Positions 10,401 to 29,205 of a stretch of 41,884 bases of DNA are shown piece by piece (the first letter of the stretch is position 1; every line of letters begins with the position of its first letter). The position numbers and the translations under genes were made by a program. Below the pieces are notes generated by a model. The model made no database searches. It was not told the origin of the DNA and saw only the letters and a program-made list of their open reading frames with translations. Source of the stretch: an uncultured Anaeroplasma sp. GTDB lineage: Bacteria > Bacillota_I > Bacilli_A > Acholeplasmatales > Anaeroplasmataceae. The stretch lies in contig CAMEJG010000015.1 of the NCBI GenBank assembly GCA_945919465.1, forward strand, positions 1 through 41,884, given 5' to 3'.

Positions 10401-11517
10401 CAGGGCGTAAATCCATATAATTTCCCATTCCATTAAAATAATCAAGGAAATTAAAGCTAGTTAAGCCTCCACGCATTGTCATACTAAAAAATAAGCTTAA
10501 GCCTAAAACTACTACAGGTACGGTCATTACCTTAATAATTAAATTTAATGACATTAATAAATCACTTTTTGGCTTTTTATATTGTTTAGCTTGACTAGAA
10601 AGCTTTTCAACATAGTTATGCTCTCCAACCTTATCAACACGACATTTACATTTACCTGATACAATAAAAGAACCACTATATAAAACATCTCCTGGCTTTT
10701 TAATTATTGCATCACTTTCACCAGTTAATAATGATTCATTAACTTCAACATTTCCTTCGATTAATATTGAATCAGCGCATATTTGATTTCCTGTTTCAAA
10801 CAGAATAATATCATCAAGAACAACCTCATCAACCGCAATTTCCTTTTTTACTCCCTCTCTAATTACATTAGCAACAGGAGCAGACATTAATCTAAGGTTA
10901 TCAATCATATTCTTAGCTCTTATTTCTTGGATAATACCAAGAATAATATTAACTGAAACAATTAATAAGAAGACTAAATCAGTAAATGCTTGAACTGAAA
11001 TTAAAAATCCTGCAATAATGAACATTAAAATATTAAAGAAAGTAAATATATTACTAAAGAAAATCTTTGGAATAGATTTAGTATTCTTATTATCATTGAT
11101 ATTATTTAATCCTTCACTAAATCTTTGATCAACTTGAGCATTTGTAAGTCCAAAATCAGGTTTATTGAATCTTTCTACATCATTAATATTTTTTCTCTTA
11201 ACCTTTATCTTTTTCTTTTTTATTTCAGTAGGATCAGCATCTAAATTAGACATAGATTCATTAGTAAAATTTAAATATTCTTTATTATCATTATTTTCTA
11301 AAGTCTTAGGTTCCTCAGTATCTTCAATTTCACTAGAATTAACTTCTAAAGAATCATTAATAGAGATATCTTCATTTTCTTCAATAATTTCTTCTTTAAT
11401 TGGTTCTGTAGCTTGTTCTGAATTTAAAGATTCTTTTTCTTCTAAAGTTGGCTCTATAGCATCTTCTACTATAGATTCTTTTTCTTCTTCTACAACAACT
11501 TTTCTAGGCCTACCCAT
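7411..11517 (-). CDS. P-type cation ATPase with N-terminal acidic tail and large extracytoplasmic insertion
   Basis: A 1368-residue P-type ATPase, against about 780-900 for close relatives (Exp7/CtpE-like cation pumps). The pump core is complete: actuator loop TGESDA (near 266), phosphorylation motif CLDKTGTITDG (Asp near 429) and hinge MTGDGVNDILALKEADCSIA (near 660). The M4 ion-site segment reads IPSGLF, where Ca2+ pumps have PEGL. Residues 1 to about 110 are Glu-rich and low-complexity. After the helix ending GPQFFEF (about 864) come some 460 residues of predicted outside sequence with repeated P-x-I ... Y-[VI]-[VI]-[DN]-G units. A final helix (LLLLLCLLAGP) and a basic tail follow. Strong AGGAGG site; start overlaps mrnC by 8 nt. 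The transported ion is unknown. Confidence 0.88.
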   Translation of the reverse strand: MGRPRKVVVEEEKESIVEDAIEPTLEEKESLNSEQATEPIKEEIIEENEDISINDSLEVNSSEIEDTEEPKTLENNDNKEYLNFTNESMSNLDADPTEIKKKKIKVKRKNINDVERFNKPDFGLTNAQVDQRFSEGLNNINDNKNTKSIPKIFFSNIFTFFNILMFIIAGFLISVQAFTDLVFLLIVSVNIILGIIQEIRAKNMIDNLRLMSAPVANVIREGVKKEIAVDEVVLDDIILFETGNQICADSILIEGNVEVNESLLTGESDAIIKKPGDVLYSGSFIVSGKCKCRVDKVGEHNYVEKLSSQAKQYKKPKSDLLMSLNLIIKVMTVPVVVLGLSLFFSMTMRGGLTSFNFLDYFNGMGNYMDLRPVIRKTAGAMIGMIPSGLFLTSSIALFIGVIRLSQRNVLVQELYCIEMLARVNCICLDKTGTITDGTMSVKNVIDFNSINGLATKNVVSAMLNALQDTNLTSQALREKFGMGKRIKHIASIPFSSQRKYQAVTFEKYGTYILGAPEFVLKEHFTPYKKDVDKYALMGYRVLCLAHKDGIIVDNKLPDNKPEVVSMILIEDNIRPDAINTIKYFKDSGVLVKVISGDNPLTVSKISQRAGVLNADEYISLDGLSDQEVIKAATRYTVFGRVSPAQKRLLIHTLKESGLTVAMTGDGVNDILALKEADCSIAVASGSDAACNCSHIVLCDSNFDSMPYVVREGRRVINNVTSVASLFLTKTIFSLLLAIQALITGNYPISTNQLFLIDVLAIGLPSVILVYEPNNNPVQGKFLFNVIKKALPGALVILIISLIVFGLKDSLNFDSTTLSTIIVIAATHTCLMVLNKVCKPYNTLRRILFGFCYTIFLIAIFAGPQFFEFRPLVGFSEYYSDSTTIEMITSYPKIDISKDNYYVVDGKVIDLQTDNNIKTPTLSSVLNNNDSKFYYAINNTMIDTLVNIPDLSYDNQGNIYFGGYALVNNLKYNDDFISSIRVDENGYVYSNNEALNIKLKNSSVYYNYSTKYGTSSEDEAIKQFRIMPTIELKNGEYVINGIQSNEKSYKAPVYLTSADSLVVTINPSNLELLINGDPIYATFKDGSLDTEPYKVSLPTITTNADDRNNPGAIYINATRTGKSIFTIYGKTRLFESPKSNEPIKTYSLFMKDSSDKILEIAKVESTSPSFEDAYFYVTLDEESGEYKLSQEIDNFNINDIVNKGFKNLYSINSSLNYENIDINNPITGLSIKVENAKSSYILAQGDNTFDTGAYGSLNNAILAPTITVTKSNNYIINGYYTEYSASSYELNPHKNSDNYLVLGNQVTDFKISTNDISTQTGGIVTQLSISSKILLLLLCLLAGPLMKIFQFAVPWLKSSIKDFLKLLSR

Positions 11518-11920
11518 TTGCTACCTCCTTATTAATTTCAATACATATATTTATAAGCTCTTTTATTCTTTCAGGATTTTTATTGATATATAAATATCCT
11601 ATTACTGCTTCAAATCCAGTTGCTTCCATATATGATTGAATATCGATATTTTTTCTTACAGAATGATTATGACTATTTCTTCCTCTTTTATAAATAGACT
11701 GTTCTTCTTCTGTTAATATGTTATTATCTAAGAAATATCTAATAAATTTACTTTGAGATACTCCACTAGTAAATTCACATGCTTTTTTATGAAGCCTATT
11801 AACATTACTATATCCTAAGGATAGAATATATTCTCTAATATATACTTCATATATAGCATCACCTATATAAGCAAGTGATAATCCATTTAAAAGATTTGCA
11901 TCCATTATAGTATATTCCAT
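11510..11920 (-). CDS. mrnC: Mini-ribonuclease III (MrnC)
   Basis: A 136-residue RNase III catalytic domain without the double-stranded RNA binding domain; in B. subtilis this enzyme matures 23S rRNA ends. The signature strand SLAYIGDAIYEVYIRE contains the catalytic Asp, and the second acidic cluster is ATGFEAVIGYLY. The middle motif KRGRNSHNHSVRKN is also typical. It follows cysS as in B. subtilis, here with a 16-nt overlap. The next in-frame ATG (11905), five codons later, is an equally possible start because neither has an excellent ribosome site. Confidence 0.93.
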   Translation of the reverse strand: MEYTIMDANLLNGLSLAYIGDAIYEVYIREYILSLGYSNVNRLHKKACEFTSGVSQSKFIRYFLDNNILTEEEQSIYKRGRNSHNHSVRKNIDIQSYMEATGFEAVIGYLYINKNPERIKELINICIEINKEVANG

Positions 11921-13233
11921 TCTACAAGCTTATTACGATAAATATCAGCTGTTTCAAAATCCTTATTTATTCTTGCTTCATTCCATTTAGAATAAATATC
12001 TAATTCCTCATTTGTTAAAGGTTTTATAAATAAATCAATACCTAATACATCAAGTATTTCTTTAAATGTTTTAAGCTTAATAGCTAAAAGCTCATAATTT
12101 TTACTACGTAAAGAGGTATTAATATCCTTAACTAATGAAGTAATTAAAGTCAATACATTTTGAACATTAAAATCTTGATTCATATATTCCTTAAACTTTT
12201 CAATATCATCATATGAAATATTAGTAAGTTCAATATTTCGATATTGACATTCATATAAGGCTTGCTTATAGGTTCTTTGCCATTTTTCATATTCCTTTTC
12301 ATATTGACTCTTTAGCTCCTCACTAAAACTAATAATACTTCTATATGGAGAAAATAAAATAAGACTACGAAGAATCATTCCCTCTTTTGTATTATTTAAA
12401 TCCTTAACATAAATACAATTTCCTAAGGATTTGCTCATTTTAGCTCCAGCTAAATCCAGTCTACCAACATGAATCCAATATTTTGCTAAATGATTATGAT
12501 ATAAAGCCTCACATTGAGCTATTTCATTCTCATGGTGAGGGAATTTTAAATCCATTCCTCCTCCATGAATATCTATCATTCCATTAAAAAGCTTATGATT
12601 CATTACAACACATTCAGTATGCCATCCTGGTCTACCCTTACCAAAAGGGGAATCCCATTGAATTCCTTCTTCAGTTTTTTTCCATAGGTTAAAATCTAAT
12701 GGATTTTCCTTTTTATCATTAACACTAATACGAGCACCACTCTCTAAGTCCTCACTGACTTGATTAGATAAGCAACCATAATCTTTTATTTTGCCGACTC
12801 TAAAGAAGACATCTCCATCACTTACATAAGCATAGCCCTCTTCAATTAACTGATTAATAAATTCAATCATTTCAGGAATATAGTCTGTTGCGTGAGGAAT
12901 TAAATCCGGTTTCTTACTTCCAACCATTTTAGTTGCCTCAAAAAAAGCCTCCTCATAAAAGCTAGCTATTTCCTTTTCTGATTTATTAGCTTCTAATGCT
13001 TTTTTTATAATTTTATCATCAACATCAGTAATATTAGAGGCATATGTAACCTCATAGCCTAAAAATTCAAGATATCTTTTCATCATATCATAAAATATTA
13101 CTGGTCTTGCATTGCCAATATGAATATAGTTGTAAACAGTAGGTCCACATACATACATATTTACCTTATTACCATTAATTGGCTTAAATTCCTCAAGCTT
13201 ATTAGATAAGGAATTATATATCATTAGTGCCAT
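11905..13233 (-). CDS. cysS: Cysteinyl-tRNA synthetase
   Basis: A class I synthetase of 442 residues that charges tRNA-Cys. It has the HIGH-equivalent HIGNAR after CGPTVYNYI (about 35-40), the zinc ligands (CGPT, TECVVMNH, HGGGMDLKFPHHENEIAQCE) and KMSKSLGN (near 263). The frame extends to 13281, but the ATG at 13231-13233 fits family N-termini (MALMIYNSLSNK) and has AGAGGTGAT upstream. It is the first gene of cysS-mrnC-P-type ATPase. No T-box leader fits in the short gap before it. Confidence 0.97.
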   Translation of the reverse strand: MALMIYNSLSNKLEEFKPINGNKVNMYVCGPTVYNYIHIGNARPVIFYDMMKRYLEFLGYEVTYASNITDVDDKIIKKALEANKSEKEIASFYEEAFFEATKMVGSKKPDLIPHATDYIPEMIEFINQLIEEGYAYVSDGDVFFRVGKIKDYGCLSNQVSEDLESGARISVNDKKENPLDFNLWKKTEEGIQWDSPFGKGRPGWHTECVVMNHKLFNGMIDIHGGGMDLKFPHHENEIAQCEALYHNHLAKYWIHVGRLDLAGAKMSKSLGNCIYVKDLNNTKEGMILRSLILFSPYRSIISFSEELKSQYEKEYEKWQRTYKQALYECQYRNIELTNISYDDIEKFKEYMNQDFNVQNVLTLITSLVKDINTSLRSKNYELLAIKLKTFKEILDVLGIDLFIKPLTNEELDIYSKWNEARINKDFETADIYRNKLVEWNIL

Positions 13234-13250
13234 ATTATCACCTCTTAAAA

Positions 13251-13273
13251 GCGAGAAAAGAGCATAACGCTCT
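13251..13273 (-). terminator. Weak hairpin between lipoprotein gene and cysS
   Basis: The minus-strand stem AGAGC/GCTCT with a 5-nt loop is followed by TTTCTC. It is short and has a poor T-run, so partial termination or read-through into cysS is likely. Confidence 0.35.
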
Positions 13274-13287
13274 AAACTCAAAAAATA

Positions 13288-14970
13288 TTATTCTTCTACT
13301 GTTAAGGCATCAATAGTATTTAATGCCACATAATTTCCATTTAATACATTAGTTAATGTAGTATTATATGTTAAATTAACCATTAATGTTGTAGTATCAG
13401 CTACACTACCAAATTGAAGCTTATTTTCTTTTAAATAACCACAATTATTAACTCTACCATTATTAGCACCAGAGAATAAACCAACAAAGACATATTGAGT
13501 TTCCTTCTTAACAGTCTCTTCTTCTTCTTTTACTTCTTCTTCCACAAATGCTTTAGCATAAAGCTTAATGCCTTCTACTCTTGGTTGATATGCACAGTTT
13601 TTAACTTCAAAAATAAAATCACTTAAATATCCAGCAAAGCCACCAATATAAGCCTTAGTAGCTAATAAATTAGTCATAACATTAGTTTTTGCCTCTTCAT
13701 CAGTTATTTCAGAAACATCATCACCAGTATAATTACTCTTTTGTCCTGCATAACCAATAATATCACAAACACTTACACAATCATTAATATTAATTTGAGC
13801 ATTCTTATCCTTTCCTAAGAATCCTCCAATATATAAATCATGATTTACATATCCTGTACCACTTCTTCTTGAATATGCAATTTCAACATTAGAATAACAA
13901 TTCTTAATTATACCTGTAGAACCTGCACTACCAACAAAACCACCAACAATTGTATGACCCTTAGATGAAGAATATTCACAATTAACTAAAATCTCACCAT
14001 TAGTACCACAATTTTCAGCTGTAACCTCTTTAGCATTACCACTAACCTCACCAGCAAGTAATCCGACAGATACATATTTTCTTGCCTTAGACATTAAAAT
14101 TGCCGCATTATTAACATATACATTATTGAAATAACAATTATATGCCTTACCTACAACGCCACCAATATTTAATGTAGCTGAAGTTGCCCCACTGAATTGA
14201 TTCTCTGCATGCTTTTTTCCATATGTTAATCCGTTTACAGTAACATTTTCAAAATTAGTATATTCTGCATTACCTACTAAAGAACCCATATCACTAGTAC
14301 TTTTTGAACCTGTAGTAGTGAAATTTATAGTCTCTAGAGTAAGATCCTTAAATGTAGCATTCTTACTATATCCAAATAAACCACTAGCTGTAGCACTCTT
14401 TAATTTAAAATTAGAAATCTTAAAACCATTACCATCAAATGTTCCTTCAAATTTTGTAGATGAAGAATCAAATAAAATTACTTCTTCTCCTTCTAAATCA
14501 ATATCAGCAGTAAGCTTATATGAAGCATTAGAAATATCAGTATCAATTTCCTTTAAATCATAAGCATTAGAAATTTCAATTACCTCATCTGAGGCATCTT
14601 TTGATTTAGTCTTAAATGTTTCTGTAGCAATCAATTCATCCTTTTCGTTCATATTGATGTATAATTCAAAGGTATATTCAGTTTCTTGAGATAAACCAGT
14701 AAATTCACAATTAGATTTAGAATAGTCATTACCACTAAAAGATAATGTTTTATAAGCACTAGATGTAGATTGATCAGCTCTTTTTACAAATGCAGTAGCA
14801 TCTCCTGATTCAAGTGGTCCATAATTATAAAATTCCACATTAATTTTAACTGATGTAGAGCTACAAGTAGCACTCATACTTCCTTCTACTCCACTACTAG
14901 AACAGCTAATTAAAGTTAAACCTAGTATAAAAGCGCAAATAAACGCAAATAATCTCTTAATTTTATTCAT
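13288..14970 (-). CDS. Surface lipoprotein with Fn3-like domain and GLUG-like repeats
   Basis: A 560-residue protein with a signal peptide and lipobox LISC (lipidated Cys23). Residues about 35-120 look like a fibronectin-III-type beta sandwich (EFTGLSQETEYTFELYI). From about 170 on there are some seven repeats beginning G-[GSL]-[LFV]-x-G (GSLVG, GGVVG, GLLAG, GGFVG, GGFLG, GGFAG, GLFSG), each followed by a strand such as NCYSNVEI. This is the GLUG type of repeat that forms a right-handed beta-helix in secreted proteins. It is probably an adhesin or glycan-binding surface protein. A Glu-rich stretch (EEEVKEEEETVKKE) interrupts the last repeats. No enzyme motif is seen. Confidence 0.75.
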   Translation of the reverse strand: MNKIKRLFAFICAFILGLTLISCSSSGVEGSMSATCSSTSVKINVEFYNYGPLESGDATAFVKRADQSTSSAYKTLSFSGNDYSKSNCEFTGLSQETEYTFELYINMNEKDELIATETFKTKSKDASDEVIEISNAYDLKEIDTDISNASYKLTADIDLEGEEVILFDSSSTKFEGTFDGNGFKISNFKLKSATASGLFGYSKNATFKDLTLETINFTTTGSKSTSDMGSLVGNAEYTNFENVTVNGLTYGKKHAENQFSGATSATLNIGGVVGKAYNCYFNNVYVNNAAILMSKARKYVSVGLLAGEVSGNAKEVTAENCGTNGEILVNCEYSSSKGHTIVGGFVGSAGSTGIIKNCYSNVEIAYSRRSGTGYVNHDLYIGGFLGKDKNAQININDCVSVCDIIGYAGQKSNYTGDDVSEITDEEAKTNVMTNLLATKAYIGGFAGYLSDFIFEVKNCAYQPRVEGIKLYAKAFVEEEVKEEEETVKKETQYVFVGLFSGANNGRVNNCGYLKENKLQFGSVADTTTLMVNLTYNTTLTNVLNGNYVALNTIDALTVEE

Positions 14971-15684: not shown

Positions 15685-16938
15685 CTAGTAATTATTTAAT
15701 AAGAACTCTTTTAAAGGAATAACATATATCTTTTTATTATTTATTTCTATTATTCTCTTTTCATCATAAGTAACTATAATAAGTTTTAATTCCTCTTCTT
15801 TATCATTTGCATAATTGATTAAATTTGATACTTCTCTATCAAATGTTCCAGAATTACTTAATGAATATGCAACTTGGATTAATGTTTTATTGCTTGGTAA
15901 ATAAAAATCAATATCAACTTTATTACCTTTTAAATAATACATCTCATAATTATGTCTATATAAATTTATTGCAACTATATTTTCTAATAAAGCTGTTCTT
16001 TTACCATCAATAAACAAATTCAAAACTCCGTTGTCTCTAAAGTAATATTTGGGGTTACTATTCTTATCAACAAATGAAGCAAAATAATTTTCAAGTGTAA
16101 ATAACAAGAATGAATTTTTTATATATCCACAATAATCAATTACTACATCTTTTGATATTTTATAACCAATACCAGTTATTGTATTTTGTAATCTTGTATA
16201 TGATATGTCTTGCATAACTGATTCTGATATTTTTTTAATTAATAGTTTCATTCCGTTTTCGCTTCTCACTTTATTGTGAGTAATAATGTCATTATACAAA
16301 ACCTTTTGATATACGCTAGATACATATTCTCTTTTATTTTTAAAATCTATAGATGCAGGAAATCCTCCATAAATAAAGTATTGTTCTAATATATTGTTAA
16401 TTTTAGCTATTTCTTTGGTTGAATAAGCATCATTATTAAGATTATTTGCACGTAAATATTCATTAAAAGAATATGGTAATATTTCTTTCATGATATATCT
16501 TCCACCAAGTTTTGCTGCAACCTCATTAGATAACATTTTTGCATTACTACCAGTAATATCAACCTTATACCCTTGATTAGCTACTCTAATTGCAAACTTT
16601 TCCCAATCATTTATATTTTGAATTTCATCAAAATAAAAGTAATGCTTTTTAGAAGACATTTCTTCTGCCACAAGTAAAATTTCATCAAAATCATTTAATT
16701 TGAAATCAATTAATCTTTCATCATCAAAATTAATATATATAATTTGATTCCATTCAACTCCAGATTTTATTAAATCTTGCACTCTTTTATATAACAATGT
16801 AGTTTTGCCAACACGTCTTAAACCAACTAATACATAATTAGCATTCGCCTCTAATTCTACATCCCTATCTACTATAATTGTATCTTGAATTACTTGATGT
16901 TGATCATATATTATCTTTTTAAGAATTTCTTTATCCAT
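15685..16938 (-). CDS. AAA family ATPase with DUF4143 domain (copy 1)
   Basis: A 417-residue AAA_14-type ATPase. Walker A is GLRRVGKTTLL (39-49) and Walker B is HYFYFDEIQNIND. An arginine-containing strand DITGSNAKML serves as sensor 1. The C-terminal DUF4143 part shows the nuclease-like pattern YYLKGNKVDIDFYLPSNKTLIQVAYS. Proteins of this class are abundant in gut bacteria and their role is not established. It has its own promoter and a site AGGATGGTGA before the ATG. It differs strongly in sequence from the other two copies in the window, so they are not recent duplicates. Confidence 0.85.
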   Translation of the reverse strand: MDKEILKKIIYDQHQVIQDTIIVDRDVELEANANYVLVGLRRVGKTTLLYKRVQDLIKSGVEWNQIIYINFDDERLIDFKLNDFDEILLVAEEMSSKKHYFYFDEIQNINDWEKFAIRVANQGYKVDITGSNAKMLSNEVAAKLGGRYIMKEILPYSFNEYLRANNLNNDAYSTKEIAKINNILEQYFIYGGFPASIDFKNKREYVSSVYQKVLYNDIITHNKVRSENGMKLLIKKISESVMQDISYTRLQNTITGIGYKISKDVVIDYCGYIKNSFLLFTLENYFASFVDKNSNPKYYFRDNGVLNLFIDGKRTALLENIVAINLYRHNYEMYYLKGNKVDIDFYLPSNKTLIQVAYSLSNSGTFDREVSNLINYANDKEEELKLIIVTYDEKRIIEINNKKIYVIPLKEFLLNNY

Positions 16939-17340: not shown

Positions 17341-18729
17341 TTAATTACACATTTTACCCATATTTATCAGTTCATTAATTTCACCTTTTTGTAAAGTATT
17401 AATTAAAAATGGTACATAATAACATGGAACTGTTAGTATTTTGTTATTTACATCATAACCATATTTGTTTTCAGATATTTTTATCGCCACAAATAGTTTA
17501 TTATGATTTTTAAATTTATCCAAAGAATCAAGCGAACCTTTTGATTTCTTAACATCAATTGGAATAACAGTCGAATCATACTCAATGATAAACTCAAATT
17601 CAGAGTTTCCTTTGCCTTTCCAATAAAATAGCTTGTACCCAGACTTCACTAATTCTGATGCAACATAATTCTCAAAGAAAATTCCTGATAAAGAATTCCT
17701 AGCATTTTTATCAATAAATGTTGTTGCATTAATTCTACTTTGATATGAAAAAATTCCAATATCAGATAAATATAATCTATATAACGATTCATCTGAATCA
17801 ATTAATGGAATAGTGACATTTTCTTTTATCAAAGAAGCTTTATTAATTAGATATGCTAATGCTAACCAGTCGATAGGAGATCTCATATTTCTACTTTTTG
17901 CATCTTTTTCTATCAATGATACTTTAAAATTTTTTGATTCTTTATTTAATTGTGTATAAATGTTTTCAAAGATTTTTTTAGATCTAACAATTGACTCTGG
18001 ACTTGCCTGATACAAATCCATATCAGCTAAATAGTTATCATATAAGTCTTTTAATGTTTCTCTAGCTTCTTGATAGCTACCTGTTTCAATGAAAGTGTCA
18101 ACCACTTCAGGCATTCCACCAATCAACAAGTACTCATAAAAAACTTCTAATGCTTTATTGTGAATTAATTCTTCACATATTTTATGATTTTTATAAGCAG
18201 TTAAAACACTATCATATAATTGTTTATTTCTATTTAATAAAAATTCTTCAAAATTCATTGGATAAATAGTCAATTGATTTATTTTTCCTACCGGAAACAA
18301 AAACTTGTCTTTATTTCCTAATCCTCTTTTCCTATTTTCTCTTTGAATCTTGATTCTAACCATTGATCCAGTGACAATAACGGGTATTTCCTTAAAATCT
18401 TGACAAAAATATTTCATAAGTGTAATTATAGGTAAGCATTCTTGAGCTTCATCAAATATTAAAAGGGTATCTTTATCAATAACCATATCTCTGTCTAAAG
18501 ATAAGTATTCTATGATTTCTTTAGCATTTACATGCTCCATACAATAATCAACAAAATTATGCTCTATTCTACAATCAACATAAATATATTTATTTGGAAA
18601 ATATTCTTTTGCAAAAATCTCTTTAATAAGATAAGTTTTTCCTACTTGTCTAGCACCCCAAACCATTAAAGGTTTTCTATTATGATTATTTTTCCATTCG
18701 ATTAAATTCTCTATATATTTTCTGTACAT
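17341..18729 (-). CDS. AAA family ATPase with DUF4143 domain (copy 2)
   Basis: A 462-residue ATPase of the same class as 15685-16938 but only distantly related. Walker A is GARQVGKTYLI (25-35), Walker B is TLLIFDEAQECLP, and the sensor strand is PVIVTGSMVRIKIQ. The C-terminal DUF4143 has SGIFFENYVASELVKSGYKLFYWKGKGNSEFEFIIEY, resembling a PD-(D/E)xK-type core (E..F..E) and followed by IPIDVKKSK. The frame extends to 18741 with GTG codons, but the ATG at 18727-18729 has a GTGGTGAT site and suits family N-termini. It has its own promoter with a predicted leader near 13 nt. Function unknown. Confidence 0.85.
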   Translation of the reverse strand: MYRKYIENLIEWKNNHNRKPLMVWGARQVGKTYLIKEIFAKEYFPNKYIYVDCRIEHNFVDYCMEHVNAKEIIEYLSLDRDMVIDKDTLLIFDEAQECLPIITLMKYFCQDFKEIPVIVTGSMVRIKIQRENRKRGLGNKDKFLFPVGKINQLTIYPMNFEEFLLNRNKQLYDSVLTAYKNHKICEELIHNKALEVFYEYLLIGGMPEVVDTFIETGSYQEARETLKDLYDNYLADMDLYQASPESIVRSKKIFENIYTQLNKESKNFKVSLIEKDAKSRNMRSPIDWLALAYLINKASLIKENVTIPLIDSDESLYRLYLSDIGIFSYQSRINATTFIDKNARNSLSGIFFENYVASELVKSGYKLFYWKGKGNSEFEFIIEYDSTVIPIDVKKSKGSLDSLDKFKNHNKLFVAIKISENKYGYDVNNKILTVPCYYVPFLINTLQKGEINELINMGKMCN

Positions 18730-18748
18730 ATGCATCACCACTAGCTAT

Positions 18749-19071: not shown

Positions 19072-20465
19072 TTATTTTAATACTTTCCAAGAACCATTTT
19101 TGTTCTCACCAATGCGTTCTATATAGCCATTTTCTCTTAAATATTTTATATTATTATCTATAGCAGTATTACTAACACCTATCAAAATTACTAATTCTGC
19201 TTTGGTTATGTTTGGATTATGCCTCATCTCTGAAATAATCTTTTTTCTAGTATCATTTAGACCATGTTTTCGTGTTAAGTTATTACCAACTTTATTGCCA
19301 TTCTTGTTATCAACTTTTCTATTAGAATAAAAAGGTATTGTTACAACAATTGAATTTTCTCTAAATTCAAATGCATCTTTAGTGTAATTTTCGATTATTT
19401 TTGGTACGCCTCTTCCTAATTTATCACTTATTCTCAATTGTGCAAATATTTCAGATAGTTTTTCATTAACGGGGACGGATTCTCCAAGATAGAAACCTTC
19501 CATAGTTTGTGCAGGAGCAATTGTTCCTCTCGATAGGATTTCTATTCTATTTGAATATACAGTAATCATTGGCTCAATACCTAAAACCCATTTGTTATGT
19601 AAAACAGCATTTACAATAGCCTCATTATATGATTTAATATCAAACAATTGTGTTTCTTTTCTTTCTTCTTTCCTATTCGTTTCATCAGATTGAATAATAT
19701 TAATGACATCACCATAATCAAGTAAATTTTTCAGTGAATACAACAAACAATCAAATCCAAATTCCTTTATTGCATATAAATTTGAACCTTTTGTATCTCC
19801 TTCAAATATTGATACACGTAAAGGCAAATGTGAATCATCAGATAATAATTGAGCTAAAATATTATACTTTCCGTCTTTAGTTAACAGCTGAAGGTTTTTC
19901 TTAAATGTTTCTTTCTTTAATTCAATTCCTTTAGATCCATAATACATAAACAACTTTTTAAATGATAAATTTTGATATTCTGATTCGGTATTCGTGATTG
20001 TAGGATATCCACTTTCAAGAATCTTAAATAGTTCTTTTTCTTTTCTAGGATTTTTCTCCATTGTGTCTTTTGAAGATCCAATACGAATATATCTTACCTT
20101 ACAAAAAGAAGTCGGAATATCCTTAGCTGCTTCTATTTTTAAAACAACTACTCTGCTTTTTTCAATTATTTCCTCAGCAAATTCAAAATTAATTCGAGGA
20201 TTTAGATTTCGATTTAAAAAGTTAATATATGGCTCACATTTGTAATCTTGATATGGATTAAAACTAGTACCTACAATTTCATGAGTTTTATCATTTACTC
20301 CCCAAACAAAATAACCATATTCTTTTCCAACTAATGCTGCAGCATTAGATATAGCTGAAACGTATTCACCTAATGCCACTGGTTCAAACCAATTTTCTTT
20401 ATATTCAAACCATTCTCTTTCATTTGAAAACTGAAATAATTCATCTAAGATTTTTTCACTTGCAT
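19072..20465 (-). pseudogene. AlbA_2/Schlafen-type ATP-binding regulator, frameshifted near its start
   Basis: The intact part encodes an AlbA_2 domain (EWFEYKENWFEP, SNAAALVGKEYGYFVWGV), an HATPase-like region (NRIEILSRGTIAP, ISDKLGRGVPKI) and a C-terminal winged helix (NPNITKAELVILIGVSNTAID). The uninterrupted frame opens only at 20379 (GTG), after the conserved EYKENW motif. The proper start is the ATG at 20463-20465 with GGTGAT upstream, but that frame meets a stop after six codons. One extra A in the A6 run (T6 at 20451-20456) would join them as MQVKKILDELFQFS. It is thus a slipped, phase-off or decayed gene, or a sequencing error. Probable transcriptional regulator. Confidence 0.75.
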
Positions 20466-21030: not shown

Positions 21031-21231
21031 TCTATTTTCTAAAGGGATTAAATATTGCTAAATTAAAAGGAAAAAAATAGGTAGACCAACTAGTAATCTA
21101 CCTAATGATTATATAAAGGTTTTAAATTCTTATATCAACAAAACAACCACTGCCAAAGAAACTATGGATTCATTAAATGTATCGAGGGGTACATTTTATA
21201 AAAAATTAAGAGAATATAAGGCTACATTATA
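21000..21231 (+). pseudogene. Serine recombinase (resolvase) C-terminal relic
   Basis: The plus strand encodes KGLNIAKLKGKK, then after a one-base shift in an A7 run (21071-21077), IGRPTSNLPNDYIKVLNSYI, TAKETMDSLNV and SRGTFYKKLREY. This is the linker and helix-turn-helix end of resolvase/invertase-type serine recombinases (family pattern AKxxGKxxGRP ... SRxTFYRxLKEY). The catalytic domain is gone. The left boundary is uncertain. Confidence 0.65.
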
Positions 21232-21748
21232 GTGCATTTTTATTATTATCCGATTGATCTTTAAATTCAAATTGTCGATTAAGATAATTTATCAATTTCA
21301 GTTGCTCCTCTTGATATTTATTTTGATTTACAATACATGTGTGAATACCATTTGGATAATATACATTTTGGATTTGATCCCATGTGATTTTATCTTTATA
21401 ACCTAAATCTTTAGCTATTTCTTCAATAAGTTTATTTCTAGCATCACTTATATCTTTTAGTTGGACCTCACTTGGATTTTCAATTTTACAACGATCAAAA
21501 TATATATGCCATTGCTCTCTAACTTTTTTTGAGTCTACAAAAATGATATCAATTAAATTTACAGCATTTAAACTTTGATAATCCCATCCATACAATCTAC
21601 TTCTCATCAAATGACATAAAACGTTCATCTTATCAGCTCTTTTTTGCGTTTTATCTCTAAAATAATTTGATAATAAAACTGAAATTATTGCAGATAATAA
21701 AGCTACAACAATTGTTAATATTGACAATAAAATTTCTAATGTGCTCAT
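21227..21748 (-). CDS. DUF6680-like membrane-anchored protein
   Basis: A 173-residue protein with one N-terminal membrane helix (LEILLSILTIVVALLSAIISVLL) and a helical cytoplasmic part. The segment MRSRLYGWDYQSLNAVNLIDIIFVDSKKVREQW fits the DUF6680 pattern as I remember it. The function is unknown; such proteins are common in accessory regions. The frame opens with TTG at 21757, but the ATG at 21746-21748 behind AAAGGAGA is preferred. It lies downstream of the four-gene helicase operon but beyond its terminator. Confidence 0.6.
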   Translation of the reverse strand: MSTLEILLSILTIVVALLSAIISVLLSNYFRDKTQKRADKMNVLCHLMRSRLYGWDYQSLNAVNLIDIIFVDSKKVREQWHIYFDRCKIENPSEVQLKDISDARNKLIEEIAKDLGYKDKITWDQIQNVYYPNGIHTCIVNQNKYQEEQLKLINYLNRQFEFKDQSDNNKNAL

Positions 21749-21896
21749 AATAAACAATATTCTCCTTTATTCTATATATGTATTAAGTATATATTTTTTA
21801 TTGTCATATTTTGTCTTATATTGCTCATGATTTTATTAAAATAAAAAGGTATCGTATTCTTGGCCTGATATCGTCCCTTAGATGAAATTCAAACAC

Positions 21897-22075: not shown

Positions 22076-22852
22076 TTATTTCATTAATAACAATACAATA
22101 GCAACAACGGCAGCAACAAATGCTAATCCAGCAACGACAATAGCAATGTTAACCTTTTTGGATGTAGATTCATGCTTTTGTAATAAACTATTAACCTTTT
22201 CATTATTAGAAGATACATCCTTAGATAATAATTCTATTTTATTAATAACATTATCAAACTTATTATTCATATTATTGTTAGTGTTATTAAAAGAATTCTC
22301 AATCTTTAATTCAAGATTCTTTAAATCATTTTTAATCTCACTTATAGGCTGAATGAATGAACCTTGAACAATTGAAGATAATGATGAATAGCTTCTTTCT
22401 AAATCTGAAAATGATCTAGACAAATTATCAAAATCACTCTTTAATCCAGCAGTATATACCTTTTGGATTTGCTCATCTAATGCTTTCATCTTATCCTCAA
22501 ATGTTGAAATTGATTTATTGAATTTGCTTGATGCATCATCAGAAATTCCCTGACTAATCACTTTAATATTTTCAATTTGATCACGAATCGAATTATTATA
22601 TGATGTGATTGCTTCTAAAGTTGCCTTCACAAATTCATCAAGTTCATTCTTCTTAGAATCAATCTTTTCAGATAAATCAGCAATTTCCTGATTTACCTTT
22701 GTAGATTCTTCTGCCTTAATCTCTACTAAATTCTTTGATAGCATTGCAACTATTTCATCTAATTGTTTTTTTAAGTCGCTTGATGCATTTTCTAGAAGAT
22801 TAATACTTTTTGAAAATTTATTAAATTCACTTGTAATATTTATATCATCCAT
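22076..22852 (-). CDS. Tail-anchored coiled-coil protein
   Basis: A 258-residue protein, almost entirely heptad-like helix (NLLENASSDLKKQLDEIVAML, then DLSEKIDSKKNELDEFVKAT and repeated LSRSFSDLERSYSSLSS). It ends in one membrane helix (VNIAIVVAGLAFVAAVVAIVLLLMK, about 234-258), with no signal peptide. The bulk would lie in the cytoplasm, anchored by its tail. It starts 2 nt after the helicase stop and is the last gene of the operon. The architecture recalls membrane-tethering or sensing subunits of multi-gene defence systems, but no family is recognised. Confidence 0.75.
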   Translation of the reverse strand: MDDINITSEFNKFSKSINLLENASSDLKKQLDEIVAMLSKNLVEIKAEESTKVNQEIADLSEKIDSKKNELDEFVKATLEAITSYNNSIRDQIENIKVISQGISDDASSKFNKSISTFEDKMKALDEQIQKVYTAGLKSDFDNLSRSFSDLERSYSSLSSIVQGSFIQPISEIKNDLKNLELKIENSFNNTNNNMNNKFDNVINKIELLSKDVSSNNEKVNSLLQKHESTSKKVNIAIVVAGLAFVAAVVAIVLLLMK

Positions 22853-22854
22853 AA

Positions 22855-25800
22855 TTATTCACCCATTCCAAATAATTTTATTGCTTCTATCATTTTTAAT
22901 TTATTAATGATATCTATATTTGTATTTTCATTTAAAATATTCTTTTTATAAAGCTTGTCTATTGATACAACTTGAATTAAGGACATGATATATTCCTCTT
23001 TTAACTGAGTTGATAGATCAATATTATCAATAATTACATTAATGTATTTTTCAAACTCTAACTTACTCATACTATGCTTAGAGTTACTAAATCTAACCGG
23101 ATCATTATTATTCTTAATTTCATAGAATCCTAATAACCAACTAAAAATAGGTATATCCTTTAATGCTATAGAGTCTTGTAATACTGCAATTATTTCCATA
23201 TCAGTAAGATTCTTAAGCTTCTTCTTAGCTAATTGAACATATCTTTCAAATAAAATAGTCAAATCTTCTTTAGAATCTTCATATTCATTTAATGCTCGCT
23301 TCAAATCATCAAGAGGTCCAAGCTCTACACCAACCAAGATGAAATTCTTTGCTTTTTTACCTGCTAATTTAGCAGTGAATGTTACCTCAAGCATATTCTC
23401 AATATCGGAATCACTATAGTCATTTAGCATTGATTGAGAGTTAATAAATGATTGATATACTTGATATAACAAGCTTGAATAGTACCACTTAACAAATGGA
23501 TCTATTAGTTTATTAACACTAGAAAAGAATTTTGTTTCATCTGAGAATTTCTTAGTAACATCGATCGATGTTTGATAAGATTCAGCAAACTTAAGCATAG
23601 ATGATCTAACAAAATCAGGGCTATCATGCTTTAAATCATATATTACTGAATATCTAATTGATTTATTATCATCTAGAACAGAACCATTATATTTAACAAT
23701 AACACCAGATACTAAAGATAAATATACACCCGTACTAAATTTATATGATTTTTGTAAGTCCGAATCAAAGTAATATGGTTTAGAAACCTTGTTGCCATGC
23801 ATTAATATATTTTGCATAAGCTTAGTATCCAAGTCAAATTGCGTAAAAGTATCTAATGTTAAACATAAATTTGAATATAATGCATTAGGCCAATCGATTA
23901 ACTTATCTATTGAGGTCATAGTCATTGGTTCTTGATATTTTTTATCATCAATATATATTTCAACTGCATGGCCCATAATAACTTGCTTATCATCTTTAGT
24001 TAAACCCATCGTAGATAATCTACATACTCTACCTGTTTCTTGATAATACCACTCCTTTGATGGAGGAGTACCTAATGTAATTATTGTTTTAACAGATGGA
24101 ATATTAATACCAATACTAAATTCATCTGAAGCAAACATTACATTTCTTAAGCCATTAACAAATAAACTATAAGCATCTTGTTCTCTTGAGCTATAAAAGA
24201 CTGAAGTATCTCCAATAGTCTTTGATCCATCGACATAAGGAATATCCTTAACATAATCATATGCCTTCTTCAATAGCTCAACATCATTATTAATAACAAC
24301 TATATTTTCAAATGCTATTTTATGATCTTTTACATCTTTTTTTGCTCTTTCAAGCTCTAAAAGCAATTGCTGTCTGAAAATTTCTAATAATTCATCATTA
24401 TCCTTAACAGCAAATTTTTTATGTTCAATCAAATCACGTTTAAAAGAACCCGCAATAATAAACTTTACATTTCTCTCAGGCTTTCCTTTAGGAACATTTT
24501 TAAATCTAATCATCAAATCATTTTGAACATTATCATTTGCAGTTGCAGTATATAATACAACCTTAACCCTAGGCATATTAGATACTATAAAATCTGTTAA
24601 TGTTAAATAATTAAAGTCAAAATTTTGAGACCAAATAGAAATTTGATGACATTCGTCTATATTAAAGAATCCTAAATAGCTTTGAATAAATAATTTTTCA
24701 AACACCTTAATATTCTCTTTATTATATAAAGAGTTTGCATCTGAATAATATAACAATGCTGTTGTTTCTAATGAATCAGTGTTGATTCTATTTGGCAATA
24801 CCTTAGCCATCTTATTTCCAATTACATCTCTTAAATTATTTAATTGATCTCGAATTAATATTAGTGTTGGAGATATAACAAATGAAATTTTAGGAGTCAA
24901 AAATGCTGTTAATTGATAAAGTGCAGATTTACCATATCCAGTTGGTAATATACAGCATGGGACCTCACCAAATGTTGAAGCATATAATGAGTGTTCTAAT
25001 ATATTTTGTTGTCCAACCTTTAATCCTTCATATCCAAAAATCAAATTTGCAAAATAATCCCAAACATCAGAATTATTTGAATCAAAATGTAAATTAAAAT
25101 TCTTTATTGCAATCAAATATAGATTACTTACAAATTCAGTAATAGCAACTTCCTCAATATCATATTCATCATTATTAATTCTTATTCTAAAATTGAAATC
25201 ATCTAAATCCTCATCTTCTTCAGCAATAACTTGAGGCTCAGCATATTCTTTTGCATCAACTTGTCTTTCTAATAATAACCAATACTTTTGATACATTTCA
25301 TGAATATCAGCTATTGCATAATTTAATATCTCAATATCCTTTGTTGAAGCAAAAATAATTATTCTTGTTTTGTTTAATGCTGAAGCAGCATATGTGATTA
25401 AGCATTCCATTGCATATATTCTATTCAAACTATCAAATGACAATCCCTTAGCCTTTAAATTGTTAGGAATAGGAATAACATTATTTCTTAATAATAGATT
25501 ATATAATGCTTTATAAACGACATTCTCTTCTTTTACATTTTTAGCAATTCTTGGCTTTCTGAACTTAATACACTTATCTGAAGAGAAAAAACCACCAGAG
25601 ATTAATACATAATCTTTACCACATAATGGTTCTGCTTCTTCAAAGTCCTCTTTAAAGAATGTCTTCAATGTATGATTATTATATCTATTATGCCCCTTAC
25701 CAAAATCCTTCATCAAAGAAATCGGAATTTGATCGGATAGATATTCATTTTCAGCAACCTCAAAAATAATCATTTTATCTCTTTCATATCTTATTGAATA

Positions 25801-26130
25801 TGAAATATTATTAAATCTTTGTGCATAATCTATAAGATCATTTATTGGCTTAAAATAAATGTCAAAATCATACTTATCAAATCGAACATCAACACTATGG
25901 CCATGAATATACTCATTAGCTATTCTTCTTATATTATCTAATTTATTATCTAAAGCTTCACCATGCTTATAGTTATTAATTAATTCATCAAGAGTTAAAA
26001 AAGGAGAGTGTATATCCTTTAGAATAATTTCAATAATTGTTCTAATGCTAGACAAAAAAGACCTATCTTTATGGCAATAGGCTGTTACACTGCTATGAAA
26101 ATAGTCTTCTAAGTCTATTCTATCAAACAT
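22855..26130 (-). CDS. HEPN-RecQ-like superfamily 2 helicase
   Basis: A 1091-residue protein. The N-terminal 110 residues look like a DUF4145-type HEPN domain with the motif IRRIANEYIHG, giving Arg69-x6-His76, the typical HEPN RNase pattern. From about 380 there is an SF2 helicase: Walker A PTGYGKSALYQ (near 392), motif II DECHQISIWSQNFDFNYL (near 490), motif III YTATAND, GSFKRDL, and motif VI YYQETGRVCRLS (near 700). The motif II extension and SFxR element resemble RecQ. The C-terminal 380 residues have no RecQ zinc site or HRDC domain that I can recognise. It lies third in a four-gene operon. DNA unwinding is likely; nuclease action is inferred. Confidence 0.8.
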   Translation of the reverse strand: MFDRIDLEDYFHSSVTAYCHKDRSFLSSIRTIIEIILKDIHSPFLTLDELINNYKHGEALDNKLDNIRRIANEYIHGHSVDVRFDKYDFDIYFKPINDLIDYAQRFNNISYSIRYERDKMIIFEVAENEYLSDQIPISLMKDFGKGHNRYNNHTLKTFFKEDFEEAEPLCGKDYVLISGGFFSSDKCIKFRKPRIAKNVKEENVVYKALYNLLLRNNVIPIPNNLKAKGLSFDSLNRIYAMECLITYAASALNKTRIIIFASTKDIEILNYAIADIHEMYQKYWLLLERQVDAKEYAEPQVIAEEDEDLDDFNFRIRINNDEYDIEEVAITEFVSNLYLIAIKNFNLHFDSNNSDVWDYFANLIFGYEGLKVGQQNILEHSLYASTFGEVPCCILPTGYGKSALYQLTAFLTPKISFVISPTLILIRDQLNNLRDVIGNKMAKVLPNRINTDSLETTALLYYSDANSLYNKENIKVFEKLFIQSYLGFFNIDECHQISIWSQNFDFNYLTLTDFIVSNMPRVKVVLYTATANDNVQNDLMIRFKNVPKGKPERNVKFIIAGSFKRDLIEHKKFAVKDNDELLEIFRQQLLLELERAKKDVKDHKIAFENIVVINNDVELLKKAYDYVKDIPYVDGSKTIGDTSVFYSSREQDAYSLFVNGLRNVMFASDEFSIGINIPSVKTIITLGTPPSKEWYYQETGRVCRLSTMGLTKDDKQVIMGHAVEIYIDDKKYQEPMTMTSIDKLIDWPNALYSNLCLTLDTFTQFDLDTKLMQNILMHGNKVSKPYYFDSDLQKSYKFSTGVYLSLVSGVIVKYNGSVLDDNKSIRYSVIYDLKHDSPDFVRSSMLKFAESYQTSIDVTKKFSDETKFFSSVNKLIDPFVKWYYSSLLYQVYQSFINSQSMLNDYSDSDIENMLEVTFTAKLAGKKAKNFILVGVELGPLDDLKRALNEYEDSKEDLTILFERYVQLAKKKLKNLTDMEIIAVLQDSIALKDIPIFSWLLGFYEIKNNNDPVRFSNSKHSMSKLEFEKYINVIIDNIDLSTQLKEEYIMSLIQVVSIDKLYKKNILNENTNIDIINKLKMIEAIKLFGMGE

Positions 26131-26145
26131 CTCATAAACCTCTCA

Positions 26146-26973
26146 TTACTTATTTAGTGTTTTAACTCCGTATAAATTATAATCATTGTTAAATGGCAAA
26201 GTGGGATTCATTCCCATTTTTATTTGTCTTACATGTCGTAATTCATCAGAAGATAACCATTCTCTTCTTATCAAATCAAAGATATCAACAGTAATATTAG
26301 AATCTGACAAATAAAAGAAAACCCTGTATTTACCTGAAATTCTCTTATCCTTAATTTCGATTGAGAGCTTAATTTCATTATCCTCACATACGTTTAAGAT
26401 AAATCTATTATACTTATTGTTCACTTGCTCAACATCAACAAAATACTGATAGTCAAGACAAGCCTTCTTATTAAAATATAAATCATCAATTCTAGTTTTA
26501 GCAGGAACAACTTCGAAAACTTTCTTTGTAGAAGAATCATATAATCCATAAGATGATTCAACCTTCTTCATAAATAAGATTCTATCTTCTGCTTTTAACA
26601 ATTCTGCTACATTACCATTTTTGACATCATCATGATCGATATTAAATGACCTAGTATCAACAAATGTTATATGCTTCAAAGCTGAATATACTGTTTTATA
26701 AAAACCTGCCTTTTGCAATGCGTTTCTAATAATATAAAAATTACTAGTTCTACAATTATCTAACCCTATAGCTATGTAAGCCTCGGGCTCTATTATATTT
26801 TTAAATTTAACAAAAAATCTAGTAAGCTTATCTAAATATGGAGAACCATTGATTTCATCATATATTCCAAATGGAGTATCTTTATATATTTTATCTTTAA
26901 TTAAAACGTAATCCTTACTATCTGGATTAAAAATATTAATGTATTTTTTTCCAATATATATATTGTATTCCAT
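26146..26973 (-). CDS. Operon protein of unknown family, possibly actin/MreB-like
   Basis: A 275-residue protein; I do not recognise a family. The start is the ATG at 26971-26973, which overlaps the upstream stop (TAATG) and has AGGAG nearby; the frame extends further upstream but only inside the preceding gene. The first 130 residues follow the order of actin-like ATPases: paired N-terminal strands (YNIYIGKKYINIF), then a G-x-I-x-D-like piece (FGIYDEINGSPYLDKLTRFF), then AYIAIGLDNCRTSNFYIIRNALQKAGF, like the MreB segment before its second phosphate loop. No clear phosphate-1 loop is seen, so ATP binding is uncertain. The C-terminal third is beta-rich. A stop-to-start gap of 15 nt to the helicase implies joint function. 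Confidence 0.55.
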   Translation of the reverse strand: MEYNIYIGKKYINIFNPDSKDYVLIKDKIYKDTPFGIYDEINGSPYLDKLTRFFVKFKNIIEPEAYIAIGLDNCRTSNFYIIRNALQKAGFYKTVYSALKHITFVDTRSFNIDHDDVKNGNVAELLKAEDRILFMKKVESSYGLYDSSTKKVFEVVPAKTRIDDLYFNKKACLDYQYFVDVEQVNNKYNRFILNVCEDNEIKLSIEIKDKRISGKYRVFFYLSDSNITVDIFDLIRREWLSSDELRHVRQIKMGMNPTLPFNNDYNLYGVKTLNK

Positions 26974-27617
26974 TATTTTTCTACTCCTATTAAAGCGCCA
27001 CAATTTAAACAATAGCAGCATTCCTTTGCTGTATCTTCTCCACAATGCTCACAAGTTCTTTTTACAAATTCATTTTCTTTTAAATACTGCTTAATAAATC
27101 CAGGATTGCCATATGTAAAATCATCTACTATTGACCAATATGATAAGGCATCAATATCTTTAATTATATCAGATACATCCATGTATGATGATTCGTTCAA
27201 ATACGTAAATGCGCAATTACATAAATATTCACAGAAATTTTTCTTAATATTACTCTTATCCTTCGATGACAATTTTGAAACTAATTCGACATCAAAACCT
27301 TCTCCAAGTAAGTAATCAAATAACTCACTAGTAGTATTTAATAAATATTCACAATTACTCTTATATTCTTTTCTTTCATTTATGAATAAATTTGTAAAGA
27401 ATGAAGATTTAATTTTAGTCAAACTATCAAGTAGTTCCATTTTATAATGTAACTCATAAATTATTTTCTTTAATACATAGTATCTCTCAAAAACTGGTTT
27501 TAATCGTAATTTTGATTCATCTACTGCTGCTTTTGTAAAAGCTTCAGAGGCTTCAGCATAATATTTTGCTTCTTCTTGAGCTTCAATTATATCTTCAGTA
27601 TATTTAAAATAACTCAT
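26973..27617 (-). CDS. Helical protein with C-terminal zinc ribbon, first gene of helicase operon
   Basis: A 214-residue protein of unknown function. The body is almost all helical, with an N-terminal Ala/Glu-rich segment (EAQEEAKYYAEASEAFTKAA). The last 30 residues contain CEHCGEDTAKECCYCLNCG, a CxxC...CxxC zinc ribbon of the kind used to bind nucleic acid or proteins. An AGAGG site precedes the ATG. Its stop overlaps the next start by sharing TAATG, which implies translational coupling. It opens the operon, directly behind a -10 element. Confidence 0.75.
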   Translation of the reverse strand: MSYFKYTEDIIEAQEEAKYYAEASEAFTKAAVDESKLRLKPVFERYYVLKKIIYELHYKMELLDSLTKIKSSFFTNLFINERKEYKSNCEYLLNTTSELFDYLLGEGFDVELVSKLSSKDKSNIKKNFCEYLCNCAFTYLNESSYMDVSDIIKDIDALSYWSIVDDFTYGNPGFIKQYLKENEFVKRTCEHCGEDTAKECCYCLNCGALIGVEK

Positions 27618-27647: not shown

Positions 27648-27714
27648 ACATTATTTTTTATTTTTTTATTAAAAATAATATATTTTTTACCATATTTGTG
27701 AAAGAGCTGATAAA

Positions 27715-27954: not shown

Positions 27955-29205
27955 TTATAATCCTATTATATCTATAGGGCAATAATATACCTCATCATTA
28001 ATAGGTAATACTTTGTCAGATGAATCTATAACTAATCCAATATTAATATTCTTTTTAAACTTTTTTAATACAGTAAATCTTTTATTATGACTAACTGGAT
28101 TAATACCTTTTTTAATTTCAATTGGATAAATAGAATCATAAGATTCAATTATTAAATCTACTTCATATTGATCTTTATCGCGATAGTAATATATGTTATC
28201 CACATTTTGATAATTATTATAATATGATTTAATAATTTCAGACACGACATATGTTTCATAAAATGCGCCAGAAAATGTACTTTTTTCAAGTATTTCAGCA
28301 TTAGGCATACCACATAAATAAGCACATAATCCTGTATCCATAAAATACAATTTAGGTTTTTTAATGACTCTATCTGAAATATTAGGTGAATAAGGGCGAA
28401 TAAGCTTTATAATTCCTGATGTTTCTAAAATGGAAATCCAATTTTTAACTGTTCTAACATCGATTCCAACACTTCTTGCTATTTCATTATAATCTAATTG
28501 ACATGCAGTTCTTAAAGCTACATATTTCATAAAATTCATAAATGTTGTCTCTTTGGATGCAGATATAATCTTTTTTACATCTTTTTCTATATATGTTGAG
28601 ATATATGATTTAAAAAACATATCCCTATTTGGTTTTAATGCAATATATTCTGGCATACCTCCAAGCATTATATCTTCAAATATTTCTTTTCTAGATCTAT
28701 AGTTTTTTAGCAACTTATTTTTTTCTCTTAATATATTTATTTCAGGATCAAAGTGGCTAAAAGATTCTCTTTGTTTAATTTCGTTATATGATAAGGATGA
28801 TAAATTAAAAATACATGTTCTTCCAGCTAATGATTCTGTTATTGCATCTTGAAGTTCGTACTGATTTGACCCAGAAATTATGTAAAGTAGTTTTATATGA
28901 TCATTATTATCTAGACACTTTTTCTTCATTTCATCTATTTCAATCTTAATGTATTCTAATAGCTTAGGAGCTTTTTGAATTTCATCAATTATTAAAGGAT
29001 GAGAATAATATTTTATAAATCCTTTAGGATCTCTTAATGCATAATCTCTTAGTTCTATATCATCTAATGTCACATAGTTAATATTGGGGAAAACCTTCTC
29101 AATCAATGTTGATTTACCAACTTGTCTAGGACCATAAATAGTTATAGATGCAAATTGCTTAGATGCTTCAATTATTTTATTTTCTATATTTCTTTTTATA
29201 TACAT
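27955..29205 (-). CDS. AAA family ATPase with DUF4143 domain (copy 3)
   Basis: A 416-residue ATPase. Walker A is GPRQVGKSTLI (25-35), Walker B is HPLIIDEIQKAPKLL, the sensor strand is YIISGSNQYEL, and SLAGRTCIFNLSSLS follows. A winged-helix stretch (YNEIARSVGIDVRTVKNWISILE) comes before the C-terminal DUF4143/nuclease-like part FYETYVVSEIIKSYYNN...YYYRDKDQYEVDLIIE...YPIEIKKG, which shows a complete PD-(D/E)xK-like E...D...ExK pattern. It has its own promoter and GGATGGTGA site. Function unestablished. Confidence 0.87.
   Translation of the reverse strand: MYIKRNIENKIIEASKQFASITIYGPRQVGKSTLIEKVFPNINYVTLDDIELRDYALRDPKGFIKYYSHPLIIDEIQKAPKLLEYIKIEIDEMKKKCLDNNDHIKLLYIISGSNQYELQDAITESLAGRTCIFNLSSLSYNEIKQRESFSHFDPEINILREKNKLLKNYRSRKEIFEDIMLGGMPEYIALKPNRDMFFKSYISTYIEKDVKKIISASKETTFMNFMKYVALRTACQLDYNEIARSVGIDVRTVKNWISILETSGIIKLIRPYSPNISDRVIKKPKLYFMDTGLCAYLCGMPNAEILEKSTFSGAFYETYVVSEIIKSYYNNYQNVDNIYYYRDKDQYEVDLIIESYDSIYPIEIKKGINPVSHNKRFTVLKKFKKNINIGLVIDSSDKVLPINDEVYYCPIDIIGL

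Follow-up and report, generated by a model that had tools for sequence, protein, structure and literature searches.

The helicase RqlH owes its genotoxicity to a PRTase domain and is restrained by RqlI; the two genes have been described as an operon in which no anchored coiled coil takes part (PMC4670107). AbpAB is activated by the phage protein Gp32, and the same paper states this of several other systems, Hachiman and ShosTA among them (PMC10732053). In DndF, variable N-terminal effector domains, including HEPN and nuclease domains, are carried on a defence ATPase (PMC10853773).

We compared these and other systems with a four-gene operon from an uncultured Anaeroplasma species, using the term window for the whole stretch of 41,884 nucleotides of DNA that was analysed. 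By the PADLOC, Pfam and NCBIfam models searched, the operon does not qualify as DpdF, RecQ, PsyrTA, ShosTA, Zorya, Shango or Hachiman, in agreement with the initial annotation, to which no named system with this set of genes was known. Zorya, which consists of ZorA with a MotA/ExbB/TolQ domain together with ZorB, resembles the operon in joining a membrane-linked coiled coil to a DNA enzyme, but gene 4 of the window has no MotA/ExbB/TolQ-type Pfam match and ZorA models match its coiled coil only. None of the operon proteins matches SngA (TerB), SngB (ATPase) or SngC (helicase) of Shango. The Dpd system shares a RecQ-like helicase core with the operon, and DpdF is the nearest PADLOC model. DndF resembles the helicase family of gene 3 in its interchangeable N-terminal domains but is a component of DndFGH restriction, with another chassis and context. 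Hachiman and AbpAB share with the operon a proposed logic of helicase sensor and effector, with phage ssDNA–protein complexes as the trigger (PMC10732053), but use other helicase and effector families, and no HamA or AbpA match was found among the operon proteins.

PsyrTA and RqlHI are similar in that a RecQ-like helicase is joined to a toxin domain, and an Escherichia coli cousin of the window locus has a DprA-type neighbour. However, the window operon encodes neither a PRTase domain nor a DprA-like antitoxin, and the PsyrT model matches its helicase core only. The position of the PRTase also varies: RqlH carries it at the C-terminus (PMC4670107), the helicase of the E. coli cousin at the N-terminus.

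Architecture of the operon

All four genes lie on the minus strand. Gene 1 (positions 26973-27617) encodes a protein of 214 amino acids with a C-terminal Cys-rich, zinc-ribbon-like tail, gene 2 (26146-26973) an orphan of 275 amino acids, gene 3 (22855-26130) a RecQ-like SF2 helicase of 1091 amino acids and gene 4 (22076-22852) a coiled-coil protein of 258 amino acids with a C-terminal membrane anchor. The open reading frame coordinates confirm four same-strand genes separated by gaps of −1, 15 and 2 nt. The terminator annotated after the last gene is also present, as an intrinsic terminator-like hairpin of 15 pairs followed by a T-run directly 3′ of gene 4 (22058-22023, minus strand), and such sites number four in the region versus 0.8 expected from shuffled sequences. 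The −10 element placed before gene 1 is weak, though plausible by position: a candidate promoter with the pattern TTCACA-16-TATTAT (27675-27702, minus strand) precedes gene 1 by roughly 58 nt, and promoter-like sites are about as frequent in the region as chance predicts (55 versus 53.5 expected).

Gene 3 comprises an N-terminal helical domain carrying an ANExxH motif (residues ~1-125), a pre-helicase region (~195-345), a RecQ-like core (~360-705) and a C-terminal region of its own (~706-1091). The core matches the Pfam families DEAD (2.5e-10) and Helicase_C (1.7e-7), its motifs are intact (Walker A LPTGYGKS, DECH, TATAN and QETGR), and the profile of the helicase family matches the structures of BLM, RecQ1 and E. 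coli RecQ. These results confirm the annotation of the 1091-residue product as a RecQ-like helicase, in the broad sense of an SF2 helicase whose RecQ-like core contains the Walker A, DExH, TAT and QxxGR motifs. It is not a canonical RecQ, as it scores 100.2 bits against the NCBIfam equivalog TIGR01389 (cut-off 640.2) and 94.8 against the RecQ subfamily model TIGR00614 (cut-off 219.8). The label DpdF was considered for gene 3 and rejected (NCBIfam NF041063, 40.3 bits versus a cut-off of 550).

The operon is flanked on both sides by DUF4143/AAA_14 ATPases corresponding to the PADLOC candidate PDC-S01 (15685-16938, 17341-18741 and 27955-29205). Also flanking it is a protein with Schlafen AlbA_2, HATPase_c_4 and winged HTH domains (19072-20379), and a gene for a DUF6680 protein (21227-21757, E 5e-31) lies just downstream on the same strand.

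Recurrence of the helicase and its coiled-coil partner

A full-length copy of the helicase is found in 1 of 55 genomes of the family, its own, and the other matches cover the RecQ-like core alone. The lack of a full-length homologue in the 54 other family genomes searched fits the accessory distribution that had been anticipated. A full-length relative of gene 3 is present in an Acholeplasmataceae MAG (L003; 27% identity, E 6e-75). Profile searches added three loci from the same order and class (G073, G268 and G327), and searches of plasmid and viral sequences contributed E. coli and its relatives, Haliscomenobacter, Salinibacter, Rhodothermus and four viral contigs. In all, the helicase and a coiled-coil gene are paired at 12 further loci, found in same-class MAGs, in E. 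coli, in Bacteroidota and Rhodothermota and on viral contigs. Four of the 13 loci are on viral contigs and several are on plasmids, so a function in mobile elements also fits. The distribution is accessory elsewhere as well: a three-gene version occurs in 7 of 5426 complete E. coli genomes (three chromosomal, four plasmid), and the family of G268 has the helicase module in 1 of 15 genomes. Within the genus, cysS and the RNA methyltransferase gene are not colinear, and hence no empty site was found. No PADLOC, Pfam or NCBIfam model searched names the pair, and no paper describing it was found in a literature search that did not extend to bioRxiv or most subscription journals, so that a published description may exist.

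The coiled-coil gene lies directly 3′ of the helicase gene in all 13 fully read loci. The gap between the two genes ranges from −20 to +5 nt at 12 loci (2 nt in the window) and is 102 nt at the Salinibacter locus. Gene 4 has a single hydrophobic segment, residues 238-256, that ends two residues from the C-terminus, and a Pro plus Gly content of 1.9%, which agrees with its annotation as a tail-anchored coiled-coil protein. A C-terminal hydrophobic anchor is found in the partner at 11 of the 13 loci; the partners in G327 and L078 lack it, so membrane anchoring is not universal. As a control, 282 distinct genes of at least 100 amino acids from 23 stretches were screened with a tail-anchor criterion that was set after the partners had been seen. 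It singled out 13 genes, 12 of which, two close copies among them, directly follow a family helicase at loci that are few in number and were selected by helicase, not by partner. Gene 4 and the L003 partner have no significant sequence match, and thus the partner is conserved by position and architecture only, not by sequence.

The thirteenth gene is a second tail-anchored coiled-coil gene in Rhodothermus. It belongs to the stretch 10080-13563 of the Rhodothermus marinus plasmid pRMAR01 (L111) and lies downstream of a gene for a 987-residue hypothetical protein and on the opposite strand, where the same type of partner perhaps serves another large protein.

Similarity among the helicases themselves extends beyond the RecQ core. 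Of the 13 sequences, 12 contain a pre-helicase motif of the approximate form h-x-N-h-h-x-R-G/S/N (at residue 209 in gene 3) versus a mean of 0.19 and a maximum of 2 in shuffles, for a pattern that was written after inspecting the sequences. Furthermore, the pre-helicase region of the window's own clade matches, as a profile, the corresponding region of the G073 protein that carries a DarT domain (E 2.7e-6). In a tree of the helicase cores, gene 3 groups with G133 (100/99) and with G268 (97/98), gene 3 and G268 being long branches. The same tree separates, at 85/95, the 13 module helicases from its four usable outgroup rows, of which one is a RecQ-UvrD sequence and the other three are RecQ-like. 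RecQ-UvrD proteins of ~1600 residues, from the order and from Allochromatium, had at first looked like relatives and were rejected as a different family. By a definition that combines a RecQ-like helicase, the pre-helicase motif and a direct coiled-coil partner that is usually anchored, genes 3 and 4 of the window belong with the other pairs.

The neighbourhoods support a defence-like setting for the helicase and its membrane-anchored partner, in line with the initial annotation. The chromosomal pair of E. coli PSS-10 adjoins type I restriction–modification (RM) genes, and the Raoultella pair lies near type I RM subunits. A ThsB-type TIR protein and a C5 methyltransferase are encoded within ~8 kb of the G268 pair, which is bare, with no recognisable antitoxin gene alongside. 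L003 encodes a NERD-helicase resembling RTasNERD-Hel and, downstream, a UvrD-like helicase. Another pair (L077) adjoins an integrase and apparent phage structural genes on a prophage-like contig, and those on E. coli plasmids lie near DnaB-, primase- and ligase-type genes.

Further neighbours were recorded. The gene that follows the UvrD-like helicase in L003 (16396-16917) is cut by the contig end and has a weak match to DrmA of DISARM (E 5e-4). On the viral contig IMGVR_UViG_3300043424_000947 (L110, 3523-5570), the pair is directly preceded by genes for a reverse transcriptase (RVT_1, E 7.5e-24) and for a 241-residue protein with an RNESSH motif.

Variable N-terminal domains and the genes upstream

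The N-terminus of the helicase is interchangeable. Depending on the locus, it consists of DarT, of HAD, a PRTase (ShosT) and DUF559, of DUF559, of a methyltransferase and DUF559, or of the helical ANExxH domain. In G073, the N-terminal domain of the helicase is DarT (E 5e-13); the upstream neighbour is a macrodomain gene, and a C5 methyltransferase gene lies downstream. This arrangement recalls DarTG, from which it differs in that DarT is joined to a helicase whose partner is anchored; DarT is absent from the window. The E. coli helicase carries HAD, a ShosT-like PRTase (E 1.4e-7) and DUF559 (1.1e-9), and a DprA/ShosA gene (E 6.7e-68) lies upstream and overlaps the helicase gene. For example, the plasmid NZ_CP067400.1 (L088, 5866-11989) encodes a ShosA-like DprA, a 1558-residue HAD-PRTase-DUF559-RecQ-like fusion and an anchored coiled coil of 162 residues, as if the helicase module had captured ShosTA. 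Unlike in ShosTA itself, ShosT is here one portion of a nuclease-helicase that has an anchored partner, and the window operon has neither ShosT nor ShosA. DUF559 scores above the Pfam cut-off in G327 and L077 and below it in L091, L078 and L090; a DUF559-like motif is also present in Rhodothermus and in L080, where it follows a methyltransferase-like stretch. The antitoxin-type genes, macrodomain or DprA, lie upstream of helicases that carry toxins.

Gene 3 shares its ANExxH-containing N-terminal domain with L003 and G268, the motif reading ANEYIH at residues 71-76 (codons at 25903-25920, minus strand). The initial annotation had described this region as a HEPN domain with catalysis by Arg69 and His76, an assignment that proved weak. 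DUF4145 matches below threshold (E 0.02, 15.4 bits versus a cut-off of 23.1), and although gene 3 has R69-x6-H76 in the manner of the HEPN Rx4-6H motif, the arginine is absent there in L003 and G268, which leaves HEPN catalysis through these residues without support. An AlphaFold model of the domain from two sequences is mostly helical and unusable (pLDDT 41), and a Foldseek search of the PDB with it returned no match, only values of E > 0.8. Since the domain has no confident family match, its proposed role as an effector is an analogy to the domains that replace it at other loci.

The C-terminal Cys cluster of gene 1 (C189, C192, C200, C201, C203 and C206) confirms its annotation as zinc-ribbon-like. 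Outside the window's own genome, a search of 160 genomes from the order yielded nothing better than 7e-4 for gene 1, mostly short matches around the Cys-rich tail, and nothing better than E 0.001 for gene 2. Nor did gene 2 find a match in viral contigs or the PDB, or a Pfam or NCBIfam family above cut-off, and its AlphaFold model from one sequence is unusable (pLDDT 34), and the actin-like order of elements once suggested for it has no support. Genes 1 and 2 were not seen at the 12 other pair loci. They are locus-specific add-ons, not part of the core, and the idea of four genes conserved as one unit gives way to one in which only genes 3 and 4 recur; the initial annotation had itself named such missing joint conservation as a ground for refutation. 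Because their slot is where the cousins carry an antitoxin, genes 1 and 2 may control the effector, and gene 2 is proposed, by position only, to fill a regulator or antitoxin slot. Neither gene resembles any known antitoxin in the Pfam, PADLOC and NCBIfam models.

Proposed function and alternative explanations

We consider genes 3 and 4 to be, more likely than not, a divergent representative of an as yet unnamed two-gene module composed of a RecQ-like helicase with a swappable N-terminal effector and a coiled-coil partner. Judged from domains and neighbours, the best reading of its function would be anti-phage defence or toxin–antitoxin activity. Most likely, by analogy with described systems, the helicase would act as sensor, the N-terminal domain as effector and the coiled coil as tether or regulator. 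The helicase may engage aberrant DNA, for example intermediates of phage replication or ssDNA–SSB complexes, and its ATP-driven movement would unleash the N-terminal domain against nucleic acid, causing abortive infection. The anchored coiled coil, presumably co-translated with the helicase, would tether it at the membrane and probably keep it off the chromosome or regulate it. The chances are about even that the pairs represent an undescribed, phylum-spanning immune family, in which a membrane-tethered RecQ-like chassis with a coiled-coil partner has swapped toxins and nucleases (DarT, the ShosT PRTase, DUF559, methyltransferase and HEPN-like domains) and captured ShosTA and DarTG.

A less likely but still credible explanation is a toxin–antitoxin or addiction module comparable to RqlHI/PsyrTA, in which a DNA-damaging helicase toxin is silenced by its neighbours (DprA, the macrodomain protein or, in the window, genes 1 and 2) and mainly stabilizes mobile elements. 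This explanation agrees with the position of DprA (ShosA) and macrodomain genes ahead of the toxin-fused helicases, with the presence of the pair on plasmids and with the finding that RqlI relieves RqlH toxicity (PMC4670107). However, the bare G268 pair has no recognisable antitoxin gene, and genes 1 and 2 of the window are unlike any known antitoxin. Toxin–antitoxin function and defence overlap, and this explanation therefore differs from the defence reading mainly by emphasis. An unlikely alternative is a helicase for the replication or repair of mobile elements that has no immune role, for which the RecQ-like core and the DnaB-, primase- and ligase-type neighbours on E. coli plasmids would be fitting. 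Fusions to DarT, ShosT and DUF559 and antitoxin-type genes are unexpected for a repair enzyme, and in E. coli PSS-10 the pair is chromosomal and next to type I RM genes.

That all four genes form one obligate new defence system would explain their tight spacing and single terminator, but we regard it as distinctly improbable: no convincing homologue of genes 1 and 2 turned up in the 160 genomes from the order, gene 2 has none in viral contigs, and the two were not seen with any of the 12 other pairs. We give very little credence to gene 3 being a stray DpdF of the 7-deazapurine DNA modification (Dpd) system. Its best PADLOC matches are indeed DpdF models (E 3.8e-32), but the match is confined to the RecQ-like core, and none of the 15 window proteins scanned with PADLOC is another Dpd protein, DpdA included.

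If the reading of a helicase module with exchangeable effectors is correct, several toxin–antitoxin pairs would be interchangeable warheads of a common DNA-sensing helicase chassis, and a membrane tether would be added to helicase-type immunity. It would also give a function to long ‘RecQ family’ proteins that are currently annotated as repair enzymes. The plasmid-borne three-gene version from E. coli makes the module testable in laboratory strains.
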